Shown: positions 6,566-42,340 of the stretch, one piece after another | Position numbering within the stretch: the stretch's first letter is position 1 | Layout of the letters: each line of letters starts with the position of its first letter | Source of the DNA: Gemmatimonadaceae bacterium | GTDB lineage: Bacteria > Gemmatimonadota > Gemmatimonadetes > Gemmatimonadales > Gemmatimonadaceae | Direction: 5' to 3' | DNA length: 64,000 nucleotides | Assembly (NCBI GenBank): GCA_036496605.1 | Contig: DASXKV010000051.1 | Location: forward strand, 62,001-126,000 | Position numbers and translations under genes: made by a program | The notes under the pieces: model-generated | What the model was told of the DNA's origin: nothing | The model's input: the letters and a program-made list of their open reading frames with translations, nothing else | Database searches by the model: none

Positions 6566-6634
6566 GGGGTTAGGGGCTCGGCCATAGGGGCTAGGGAGTT
6601 CGATCCCTAGCCCCTATGCTCGAGCCCCTACCCC
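6566..6634. terminator. Long two-part hairpin between convergent genes
   Basis: The inner perfect 14-bp stem pairs 6584-6597 with 6604-6617 (ATAGGGGCTAGGGA and its complement, loop GTTCGA). The outer stem pairs 6566-6580 with 6621-6634 with one bulged T. It lies between two convergent stops and has no T-run on either side, so it may be a bidirectional terminator or a dispersed repeat of the GGGGCTAGGG family seen at 37.5, 42.2 and 52.2 kb. Confidence 0.7.
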
Positions 6635-6643
6635 CGTATTCGT

Positions 6644-25522: not shown

Positions 25523-25601
25523 TGTCACCCTCAACCCTCAACCCTCGACGCCTCACGTCACTCGCGGCCCAGGGAATCGTCATTGTGAGGAGCCTTCGCC
25601 G
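25523..25601. repeat. Short CCCTCAA-type repeat before the kinase gene
   Basis: Three near-identical CCCTCAA units at about 25529-25550 (ACCCTCAACCCTCAACCCTC) resemble the CCCTCTA repeats at 37.5, 37.9 and 42.2 kb. The region also holds the ribosome-binding site of the next gene. Function unknown. Confidence 0.5.
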
Positions 25602-37516: not shown

Positions 37517-37520
37517 GCGA

Positions 37521-37563
37521 GGGGCTAGGGTAGAGGGTAGAGGGTTGTCACCCTCTACCCTCT
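37521..37563 (+). terminator. Hairpin of GGGTAGA repeats after the pil operon
   Basis: A perfect 14-bp stem pairs AGAGGGTAGAGGGT (37532-37545) with its complement (37550-37563), loop TGTC, preceded by GGGGCTAGGGT. The G-runs of one strand could also form a quadruplex. The right arm with GTCACCCTCTACCCTC recurs inside aroC at 37898. Confidence 0.75.
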
Positions 37564-37604
37564 GCCGTTTTGAGGCGGGACTTTCTCCGCTTATAGTCCG
37601 CCAC

Positions 37605-38825
37605 ATGCTTCGCTTCACCACCGCCGGCGAATCGCACGGCCCAGCGCTCCTCGCCATTCTCGAGGGGATGCCCGCCGGTCTCTCACTCGTCGCCGACCAA
37701 GTGAACGTCGAGCTTGCGCGACGCCAGCAGGGCTATGGCCGCGGCCGACGAATGCAGATCGAGAAAGATGCTGTCGAGTTTCTCTCGGGCGTGCGCGCCG
37801 GCCAGACGATCGGTTCGCCGATCGCGATGTTGATTCACAATCGCGACTGGAAAAACTGGCAGGAGATCATGGATCCCGCGCTTCGCGATGAGGAGGTGTC
37901 ACCCTCTACCCTCCACCCTCCACCTTCTATCCAACGTAAGCGGGCCGTCACACGCGTGCGCCCGGGCCACGCGGATCTTTCAGGTTTGCTGAAGTACGAC
38001 CGCGAGGATGCTCGCGACATTCTCGAGCGCGCGTCGGCGCGCGAAACGACCGCGCGCGTCGCCGCCGCGGCGATATGCAAGCGGTTCCTCACCGAATTCG
38101 GCGTCTCGATCGGGAGTCACGTCATCCACCTCGGCGGCATCGATGCGAAGCGTCCCGATCCCATGCCAAACGACATCAACGCGGCGGCCGATGCATCGCC
38201 GCTGCGTACGCTCGATTCGGACGCTGAGCAGGCCATGATCGCGAAAATCGATGTCACCAAGCGCGAGGGAAACACACTCGGCGGAATTTGCGAAGTCATC
38301 TGCGATGGCCTTCCCGTCGGACTCGGATCACACGTATCGTGGGATCGGAAGCTCGACGGACGACTCGCCGGCGCACTCATGTCCATTCCCGCGGTGAAGG
38401 CCGTAGAGATCGGAATAGGCTTCGAGGCCTCGCATCGCACCGGCGCCGAGGTTCACGACGAGATCGACCCACAGCCGAAACGTCCCCTCGCTGGAAACGT
38501 ACGGCGCCGCAGCAACCGCGCTGGTGGGCTCGAGGGTGGTATCACCAACGGGGAACCACTCGTCTTACATGTAGGGATGAAGCCGATCTCTACCCTCATG
38601 CGGCCCCTGGCCACCGTGGACGTCAGCACCGGTCAGCCTGCCGCCGCAGTCGCCGAGCGAAGCGACGTTACCGCCGTTCCTGCTATGGGTGTAATCGCGG
38701 AGGCAATGGCGGCCCTGGTGCTCGCTCAGGCTTTCCTCGAGAAGTTCGGTGGTGACTCCCTTGCGGAGACGAGGCGTAACTATGACGGCTACCTTTCGTA
38801 CCTCCAATCCCGTATCGGCGGCTGA
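37605..38825 (+). CDS. aroC: Chorismate synthase
   Basis: This 406-residue enzyme converts 5-enolpyruvylshikimate-3-phosphate to chorismate using reduced FMN. ATG 37605 is chosen over the longer open frame because the family starts MLRFTTAGESHGP. Motifs GESHG, RQQGYGRGRRM, RPGHADLSG, RETTARVAAAAICKRF and SNRAGGLEGGITNGE are present. Between NWQEIMDPALRDEE and RKRAVTRVRPGHADL there is an extra stretch VSPSTLHPPPSIQ encoded by the CCCTCTA repeat also found 350 bases upstream; it lies in a region that varies in length in the family. The 3' end overlaps aroK by 44 bases. Confidence 0.95.
   Translation: MLRFTTAGESHGPALLAILEGMPAGLSLVADQVNVELARRQQGYGRGRRMQIEKDAVEFLSGVRAGQTIGSPIAMLIHNRDWKNWQEIMDPALRDEEVSPSTLHPPPSIQRKRAVTRVRPGHADLSGLLKYDREDARDILERASARETTARVAAAAICKRFLTEFGVSIGSHVIHLGGIDAKRPDPMPNDINAAADASPLRTLDSDAEQAMIAKIDVTKREGNTLGGICEVICDGLPVGLGSHVSWDRKLDGRLAGALMSIPAVKAVEIGIGFEASHRTGAEVHDEIDPQPKRPLAGNVRRRSNRAGGLEGGITNGEPLVLHVGMKPISTLMRPLATVDVSTGQPAAAVAERSDVTAVPAMGVIAEAMAALVLAQAFLEKFGGDSLAETRRNYDGYLSYLQSRIGG
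37896..37935 (+). repeat. aroC: CCCTCTA-type repeat inserted in frame within aroC
   Basis: The 16-base string GTCACCCTCTACCCTC at 37898-37913 is identical to 37547-37562 in the upstream intergenic hairpin, and is followed by CACCCTCCACC. It adds about 12 residues without a frameshift, so a normally intergenic repeat has entered a coding region. Confidence 0.75.
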
Positions 38826-39741: not shown

Positions 39742-42183
39742 ATGGCTGCTCGAAAAACCGGTACTAGAACCCGCACGTCGGCTCGCAAGGCGACTGGCTC
39801 CGCGTCCCGCAAGGGCACGCGAGGCCGGCACGTCGCGGCCGAAGTGCATGAGGACGAGCTTTCTCCAGCGCCGGCTGGATCTCAGTCGCTCGTCATCGTC
39901 GAATCGCCCGCCAAGGCGAAAACCATCGGCAAGTACCTTGGCCGCGGATATCGCGTTCGCGCGACCGTTGGCCACATCATGGATTTACCCGAGAAGAAGC
40001 TCGGCATCGATATCGAAAAGGGGTTTGAGCCGGAGCTCATTCCCATTCCTGGAAAGGAAAAGACGATCGCGGAGCTGAAGAGCGCCGCGAAGGATTCACG
40101 CGAAGTCTTTATCGCCACCGACCCTGATCGTGAGGGCGAAGCGATTGCCGCTCACGTTGCGTTCCAAATCAAGCCGAAGCGTGGCGCAACGAACGTACCG
40201 ATCAAGCGCGTGCTCTTTCACGAAATCACGCGGGACGCGGTACGGAATGCCATCGAGCAAGCGGGGTCGATCGACGAGAAAAAAGTCGCGGCACAGCAGG
40301 CGCGTCGCGTGCTCGATCGGCTCGTCGGCTACAAGGCGAGCCCCGTTCTATGGAGGACGGTGAAGAAGGGGCTGTCTGCGGGCCGCGTGCAGACCGTGGC
40401 GCTGAGACTCATCGTCGAGCGCGAGCGCGAGATTCGCGCGTTCAAGCCGGTCGAGTACTGGACCGTCGAGGCGCTGCTCGAGAAGGACAAGCAGCAATTC
40501 ACGGCCAAGCTTCATCACATCGACGGCAAGAAGGCCGAGATCCCGAACAAGGCGGAGGCAGATCGCATCCTCGGTGACCTGAAGGGCAAAAAGACTTTCA
40601 CGGTCACGGATGTGAAGCGCCGCGAGCGACGCAAGAATCCGGCGGCGCCCTTCACGACGTCGACGTTACAGCAGGAGGCAGCGAAGAAGCTCTCGTTTGG
40701 GTCGAAGCGCACCATGCGCGTCGCTCAAGATCTCTACGAGGGAGTGGATCTCGGCGACGAGGGTGCGGTCGGTCTGATTACGTATATGCGAACCGACTCG
40801 ACGCGCGTGGCCGAAATCGCGGCGGGACAGGCGCGCGAATACCTGCACACGCTCTTCGGTAAGGAATTCCTCGCCGCCGGCCCGCAGCTGTACGGCAAGA
40901 ACAAGGGGAACGCGCAAGACGCGCACGAGAGCGTCCGGCCAACGGATCCTTCACGCCGACCGGAAACCATCAAGCGTCATCTCACGCCCGACCAGTTCAA
41001 ACTTTATCAACTGGTCTGGCAGCGCTTCATGGCGTCGCAGATGGCGCCGGCGGTATTCGATACCACGACAGTCGACTTCGACATTCCGGCATCGAAGCAG
41101 CCGGACATTGGCCGTCGCAGCTATCTGTTCCGCGCCACCGGCTCGATCGTGAAGTTCCAGGGCTATCTGGTGCTCTATCGTGAGGCGCACGAGGAAGGCG
41201 AGCACAAGACGCTCGAGGACGAGCAGGCGCTGCCCGTCGTGGCCGTCGGCGAGAATGTGCCATGCAGGGGCATCACGCCAACGCAGCACTTTACCGAGCC
41301 GCCCCCGCGGTACTCGGAGGCGAGCCTGGTAAAGGAGCTGGAACAGTTAGGCATTGGCCGCCCCTCGACGTACGCATCGATCATATCCGTTCTTGCCGAT
41401 CGGCGGTATGTCGAGCTGCAGCAGCGGCGTTTCTTCCCCACCGAGCTGGGTGAGACGGTGGAGAAGGTGATGGTCAAGCAGTTCCCCGACATCTTCAACG
41501 TGAGCTTTACGTCGGAGATGGAAGAAGAGCTGGACAAGATCGAGGGCGGTGAGCTCGAGTGGCAGAAGGTATTGAAGGACTTCTATAAGCCATTTGAGAA
41601 GTCACTCAACAAGGTCGACGCGGGCGCGTTGATCGCGGCCGCGCACGATCTGTCCGAGGTCGCGAACCTGCGCTGTCCGGACTGTGGCGGAAAGCTGGAG
41701 CCGCGTGGCGGCTTCTTCGGCCCGTTCCTCGCCTGCGAGAACCATCCGAAAAAGTGCAAGTACACGCGGCCACTCAAGGGCGAGCGTGCGAAGCCCGTGA
41801 TGACCGAGTACAAGTGTCATCTCTGCGGCTCGCCGATGGTCATTCGGCAAGGACGCAGCGGTCAATTCCTCGGCTGCAGCACGTTCCCCAAATGCCGCGG
41901 GACGCGTTCGATGCCGACGGGTGTGTTCTGCCCGAAGGACGGGGGCGAGCTGGTCGAGCGTCGCTCACGGAAGCGCGGCACGGCGTTCTACGCGTGCTCG
42001 AACGAGAACTGCGACTTCGTCGTCTGGAACAAACCCGTCGCGGAGAAATGTCCCGAGTGCGGATATCTCGGCGCAGAAGTGAAGTTCAGCAAGGCGCGCG
42101 GCGAATACCGCAAGTGCCTCAAGTGCGGCAACGAGTGGGATGTGCCGCAAAAGGAAGATTCGGCGGAGGCGCTTGCCGGGTAG
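39742..42183 (+). CDS. topA: DNA topoisomerase I
   Basis: This 813-residue type IA topoisomerase relaxes negative supercoils. A 50-residue basic Ser/Thr/Ala-rich leader precedes the TOPRIM domain (LVIVESPAKAKTIGKYLG; ATDPDREGEAIAAH). The catalytic Tyr is Y348 in GLITYMRTDSTR. The C-terminus carries four Cys4 zinc modules (CPDCGGKLEPRGGFFGPFLA; CHLCGSPMVIRQGRSGQFLG; CPKDGGELVER; CPECGYLG...CLKCGNEW). ATG 39742 follows the DUF494 gene by 39 bases. It is convergent with the second minor-pilin cluster. Confidence 0.96.
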   Translation: MAARKTGTRTRTSARKATGSASRKGTRGRHVAAEVHEDELSPAPAGSQSLVIVESPAKAKTIGKYLGRGYRVRATVGHIMDLPEKKLGIDIEKGFEPELIPIPGKEKTIAELKSAAKDSREVFIATDPDREGEAIAAHVAFQIKPKRGATNVPIKRVLFHEITRDAVRNAIEQAGSIDEKKVAAQQARRVLDRLVGYKASPVLWRTVKKGLSAGRVQTVALRLIVEREREIRAFKPVEYWTVEALLEKDKQQFTAKLHHIDGKKAEIPNKAEADRILGDLKGKKTFTVTDVKRRERRKNPAAPFTTSTLQQEAAKKLSFGSKRTMRVAQDLYEGVDLGDEGAVGLITYMRTDSTRVAEIAAGQAREYLHTLFGKEFLAAGPQLYGKNKGNAQDAHESVRPTDPSRRPETIKRHLTPDQFKLYQLVWQRFMASQMAPAVFDTTTVDFDIPASKQPDIGRRSYLFRATGSIVKFQGYLVLYREAHEEGEHKTLEDEQALPVVAVGENVPCRGITPTQHFTEPPPRYSEASLVKELEQLGIGRPSTYASIISVLADRRYVELQQRRFFPTELGETVEKVMVKQFPDIFNVSFTSEMEEELDKIEGGELEWQKVLKDFYKPFEKSLNKVDAGALIAAAHDLSEVANLRCPDCGGKLEPRGGFFGPFLACENHPKKCKYTRPLKGERAKPVMTEYKCHLCGSPMVIRQGRSGQFLGCSTFPKCRGTRSMPTGVFCPKDGGELVERRSRKRGTAFYACSNENCDFVVWNKPVAEKCPECGYLGAEVKFSKARGEYRKCLKCGNEWDVPQKEDSAEALAG

Positions 42184-42340
42184 AGGGCAGAGCACAGAGG
42201 GTAGGGCGCTGAGGGTAGAGGGACTAAGGGCAGAGAGCGCGGGTCGCGAAGCCGTTCGGACCCTCCGCCCTCTGCACTCTGCCTACGGCCCTCTGGCATT
42301 CTCTACCTTCTGCCCTCTGCCCGCCGCCCTCTGCCCAGCT
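42180..42340. repeat. Large imperfect inverted repeat of GAGGGTAGAGGG units
   Basis: The left half (42180-42238) is a run of GGGTAGAGGG/GGGCAGAG units; the right half (42270-42338) is its imperfect complement (CCCTCTGC, CTCTACC). Transcribed, it would fold into a long hairpin between the convergent topA and pilX-like genes. It contains many G-triplets and belongs to the same family as the 6.6 and 37.5 kb elements. Confidence 0.7.

Follow-up and report, generated by a model that had tools for sequence, protein, structure and literature searches.

A piece of a genome-specific heptamer repeat, whose units normally form palindromes (G-rich arm, loop, C-rich arm) between genes, has probably entered, by insertion or copying and with the frame kept, a length-tolerant loop of chorismate synthase (AroC), directly ahead of the conserved RPGHAD motif, in a Gemmatimonadaceae bacterium. 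The window, a stretch of 64,000 nucleotides, belongs to contig 51 in a MAG of 5.97 Mb (G000), and its features are collected in Table 1. The insertion reading is supported by the extra AroC sequence, which is the genome's own expanded heptamer, and by the presence of other heptamers at the AroC loop and in the linker of methionine synthase (MetH). The genomes used for comparison are mostly MAGs, one per species.

The best-known case of palindromic repeats invading genes in frame is that of Rickettsia. The present cases come from free-living soil bacteria, and their units are short and species-specific enough for each event to be traced to a repeat of the same genome. Independent inserts at the same loop and the same linker make it testable how selfish repeats turn into protein sequence, and also how the stop codons of a repeat determine whether it, or one of its arms, can enter a gene. 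Junk-like DNA would seem to become part of working proteins repeatedly in this way.

Table 1. Features of the window around aroC and further heptamer repeats
Feature	Position	Strand	Remarks
aroC, chorismate synthase, 406 aa	37605..38825	+	ORF, single uninterrupted frame
AroC loop of variable length (29 residues in G000), residues 90-118	37872..37958	+	loop lengths in ~110 relatives
Repeat-derived in-frame stretch V98-Q110 (VSPSTLHPPPSIQ)	37896..37934	+	C-rich arm, nearly no G-rich arm
Conserved RPGHAD motif	37959..37976	+	adjoins loop end; alignment
Intergenic heptamer hairpin 5' of aroC	37529..37566	.	units TAGAGGG/CCCTCTA
G-rich arm of this hairpin	37529-37545		
Loop of this hairpin, TGTC	37546-37549		
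C-rich arm of this hairpin	37550-37566		
Shared 17-base string, hairpin copy	37546..37562	+	exact identity
Shared 17-base string, aroC copy	37897..37913	+	exact identity
Further CCCTCTA-family copy, C-rich arm only, GTCACCCTCAACCCTCAACCCTC	25524..25546	+	directly 3' of terminator-like hairpin
Degenerate two-armed heptamer palindrome, CCCTCTA family	42178..42339	.	
Heptamer palindrome GGGGCTA/TAGCCCC	6566..6635	.	separate from CCCTCTA family

The repeat in aroC and in the intergenic hairpin

The hairpin upstream of aroC and the gene itself have 17 identical bases in common, TGTCACCCTCTACCCTC (Table 1). The initial annotation had described a 16-base string that recurs exactly inside aroC; its two copies lie at 37547-37562 and 37898-37913, the full identity being 17 bases, and the 16-mer occurs at these two sites only in the whole genome. 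The intergenic hairpin is a strong DNA fold (z -6.5), none of 200 shuffled sequences folding equally well. For the aroC stretch V98-Q110, the DNA fold gives no hairpin (z -0.4), and the heptamer period is evident from an identity of 0.58 at lag 7 (p 0.0002).

The heptamer is expanded in this genome. The sequence CCCTCTACCCTC, with CCCTCTA as its unit, has 137 copies genome-wide, compared to 0 for the reversed control, a count that is approximate because the assembly breaks at repeats (the ends of contigs C2 and C51, L144 and L180, have one heptamer array and its flank in common). Two congeners have 5 copies and 1 copy, and near-matches in the window number 8 against 0.11 expected from shuffles. 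Of 37 CCCTCTA clusters, 27 are two-armed, and the G-rich arm comes first in all 27; the same order is found in 12/12 two-armed elements of G060, a member of another genus. The period of seven also stands out in 267 kb of G000 that were not selected for repeats, with 15 sites at lag 7 and between 0 and 4 at lags 4, 5, 8, 10, 11 and 13.

AroC loops in related genomes

The loop was measured between the NWQEIM helix and RPGHAD in ~110 AroC sequences. Its length is 18-25 residues except in four lineages, namely G000 (29 residues), the congener G002 (43), G157 (33) and G060 (39; JAICWO010000003.1, same as G159). In a survey of 179 genomes of the family, the remaining AroC loops among the matches listed were short. 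The alignment across relatives thus places the G000 loop above nearly all others, the extra sequence being the genome's own expanded heptamer. The gain of residues proposed earlier is seen, but its size of about 12 is not borne out, since the net difference is 9-10 residues (29 versus 19-20 in sister lineages).

The AroC loop of G060 consists of a full hairpin of TGGAGAG/CTCTCCA-type units (fold z -8.0), and the 14-mer of this heptamer has 62 copies in its own genome and 0 in 11 others. In G157, the loop contains a decayed palindrome of a G-rich and a C-rich arm (fold z -2.3, lag-7 p 0.01). The loop of G002 was considered as another heptamer, and dropped (lag-7 p 0.054, no hairpin excess). In a tree of AroC that leaves the loop out, the insert-bearing sequences fall into two genera, with insert-free sisters. 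The branches with good support require a minimum of 2 changes, and parsimony gives 3. By itself, the tree also fits one early gain followed by losses, but the units differ and are genome-specific, and on these sequence comparisons we argue for separate insertion events at the AroC loop.

A close relative with a loop of the same length but unrelated sequence would speak against an insertion. This exact case was not encountered, but in G002, which alone among the congeners has aroC, the loop is unrelated and longer still, and the loop expansion may therefore be older than the CCCTCTA heptamer. It is conceivable, though unlikely, that the ancestor of the genus already had a loop expanded by unrelated sequence, and that slippage during replication later let the heptamer grow within this loop, or converted it there, so that nothing moved in. 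The location of the G002 loop at the same place and an acidic run before the loop that is common to both congeners agree with such a history, and heptamer slippage has already been proposed in print (PMC4692102, PMC4679880). However, the insert has TGTCA plus heptamer units, a junction that it has in common with the adjoining hairpin. Moreover, G060 and G160 hold both palindrome arms, in the latter case in metH (see below), and slippage alone makes none such.

Tolerance of the insert

AroC of the window resembles solved chorismate synthases (E 9e-120), and aroC has one match in the genome, so that it is the only copy found. The gene is open throughout, and the repeat is kept in frame ahead of the conserved motif, as had been claimed. 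Residues R119, P120, G121, H122 and D124 are invariant in 40 sequences, and the length at the loop point also differs among solved chorismate synthases. As this is the only AroC found, its conserved residues are intact and the solved synthases vary in length at this point, the insert is most likely tolerated, and it would probably be neutral, or almost neutral, in its effect on the enzyme as far as can be judged from sequence. In the AlphaFold model, residues 91-141 have pLDDT <50, which says only that the loop placement is not confident.

A domesticated insert, in which the loop extension or an mRNA structure would tune AroC, is improbable. The position directly before RPGHAD, with its invariant histidine, and the recurrence of inserts at this site could hint at a function, but the inserted sequences are wholly different between species, most relatives do without an insert, and the G000 aroC copy has no hairpin.

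In-frame repeats in MetH and other proteins

Besides the AroC loop, the MetH interdomain linker is a hot spot for in-frame heptamer arrays and palindromes. Linkers were taken from 16 genomes and read where both flanks matched. In G060, a repeat cluster lies inside the 1220-residue MetH, in the linker that separates the S-methyl_trans domain (up to residue 358) from the Pterin_bind domain (from residue 410). The linkers of G060 and G160 contain full heptamer palindromes (z -5.6 in both). For the G160 unit, 125 copies were counted in G160 itself, 30 in G016 and <=6 in each of the other 14 genomes, and its copies at C12:228003-228036 sit within metH. Heptamer-periodic linkers (lag 7, p <=0.005) are found in G000, G001, G158, G029 and G007, and the control linker of G022 has no lag-7 excess. 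The metH array of G000 is degenerate (fold z -0.9) and made of CAGAGGG-type units. The CCCTCTA repeat, initially considered as otherwise intergenic, is thus mostly located between genes, but a degenerate version is also present inside metH of the same genome.

A different palindrome family, TGTCATCC(C/T)GAGCG, is also in frame in the MetH linker, as a full palindrome in G016 (L282, z -5.1) and as a half in G002 (L277). This repeat type is unrelated to the heptamers, and similar strings occur at G000 repeat sites. In G018, an FG-GAP protein of 1269 residues (L249:9028-12834) has a GGAGCGT heptamer palindrome (z -11.7) in frame, directly following its UnbV/ASPIC domain. Among 40 ORFs surveyed at other repeat sites, most of those that bear Pfam domains show the repeat ahead of the domain and close to a start codon that is itself in doubt; these were left uncounted as in-gene cases.

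The common end of MAG contigs C2 and C51 might raise suspicion of an assembly or binning artefact at the repeat, but this is very improbable, as the contig runs for tens of kb to either side of aroC, the reading frame is intact, and equivalent inserts are present in independent assemblies (the 339 kb contig of G060, G160 and G157). Finally, loop sequence and length do differ from one chorismate synthase to the next, solved structures included, but plain drift of a proline/serine-rich loop to a chance resemblance with the repeat is scarcely credible in view of the 17 identical bases, the lag-7 periodicity of V98-Q110, the genome-specific unit, and the like pattern in other genomes and in MetH.

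Reading frame and stop codons

Arrays of TAGAGGG and TTGAGGG have one stop codon per 21 bases in any frame. In the TAGAGGG/CCCTCTA family, only the C-rich arm would therefore be able to stay in a gene. Stop-free units are CCCTCTA, CAGAGGG, and both strands of the G060, G160 and G018 heptamers. Heptamer palindromes that land in genes would be filtered according to their reading frame, their stop codons and the way they fold. Full palindromes stayed in frame in G060, G160 and G018, and G000 aroC keeps the C-rich arm only. In these few cases, the arm pattern is consistent with what open-frame selection would leave.

Route of copying

The initial annotation had concluded that the repeat can move or be copied into genes. 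Presence in genes holds for aroC and MetH and for several genomes, but a move does not follow from it, since insertion, copying of a hairpin and slippage on site look alike. The likeliest route, proposed tentatively and still somewhat doubtful, is that the aroC stretch arose by template-switch copying of the hairpin ~350 bp upstream, or by slippage growth after seeding, and not by REP-type transposition. Template switching at hairpins could yield two arms. The TGTCA junction that hairpin and insert have in common speaks for a copy made from this hairpin, 350 bp away. Junctions of this kind are not unusual, however: GTCACCCTC has 10 occurrences in 337 kb of repeat-rich sequence, so that the common loop bases are at most suggestive of local copying. 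Mobilisation by RAYT proteins was rejected, since a search for the Y1 (RAYT) transposase (PF01797) gave no match in G000, G060 or G157, all of them incomplete MAGs.

Beyond the single gene, there may be an active process in Gemmatimonadaceae that makes heptamer palindromes of species-varying sequence and repeatedly feeds the same protein loops and linkers, a serious possibility that we stop short of calling probable. If it is true, intergenic palindromes would continually supply free-living bacteria with new protein segments.

Relation to known repeats

The closest precedent is provided by the Rickettsia palindromic elements (RPE), palindromic repeats that lie between genes and also in frame within metabolic genes (PMC10969869). 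The in-frame palindromes in aroC and metH of G060, in metH of G160 and in the UnbV/ASPIC protein of G018 are similar in this respect; the aroC copy of G000 has one arm only. In contrast to RPE, which are ~150 bp long and have a conserved family sequence and peptide, the inserts described here comprise ~30-100 bases of species-specific heptamers, and one and the same loop or linker has taken up independent heptamer families.

Heptamer tandem repeats form genome-specific, mostly intergenic arrays, for which polymerase slippage has been proposed; named examples are the cyanobacterial STRR, GGGAATC in Xanthomonas, GGGGA(T/C)T in Nostoc and TAACTGA in Beggiatoaceae (PMC4692102, PMC4679880). The repeats of Gemmatimonadaceae are similar in their period of seven, many copies, mostly intergenic location, and a unit that is specific to a genome or group. 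However, STRR-type repeats are described as direct, whereas most clusters here are two-armed with the G-rich arm first, and in-frame copies are present in protein loops. STRRs in the RNase P RNA gene are reportedly the subject of a 1997 article by Vioque, to judge by its title. In the open-access literature, we found no reports of such heptamer repeats in Gemmatimonadota. The short intergenic hairpins and the many copies are also reminiscent of REP elements with RAYT (TnpA-REP) transposases, but the units here are of 7 bases, and the three carrier genomes G000, G060 and G157 have no Y1 match.

Other heptamer families

The genome of the window contains further heptamer families, TGGTTGG and GGGGCTA. 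Of the sites initially listed for the CCCTCTA repeat, those at 25.5, 37.5, 37.9 and 42.2 kb are CCCTCTA-like, but those at 6.6 and 52.2 kb belong to the GGGGCTA family. According to crude gene calls, repeats of this genome lie between convergent genes in 18/48 cases, compared to 20/94 gaps (p 0.046), a difference on which no weight is placed here. TGGTTGG/CCAACCA is a second large palindrome family of the genome (L216:5604-5761, L219:4424-4552, L221:16353-16438, L222:11851-11984). In many relatives, heptamer runs with other units are found directly 5' of the aroC start codon (L075, L078, L084, L086, L096, L107, L122).
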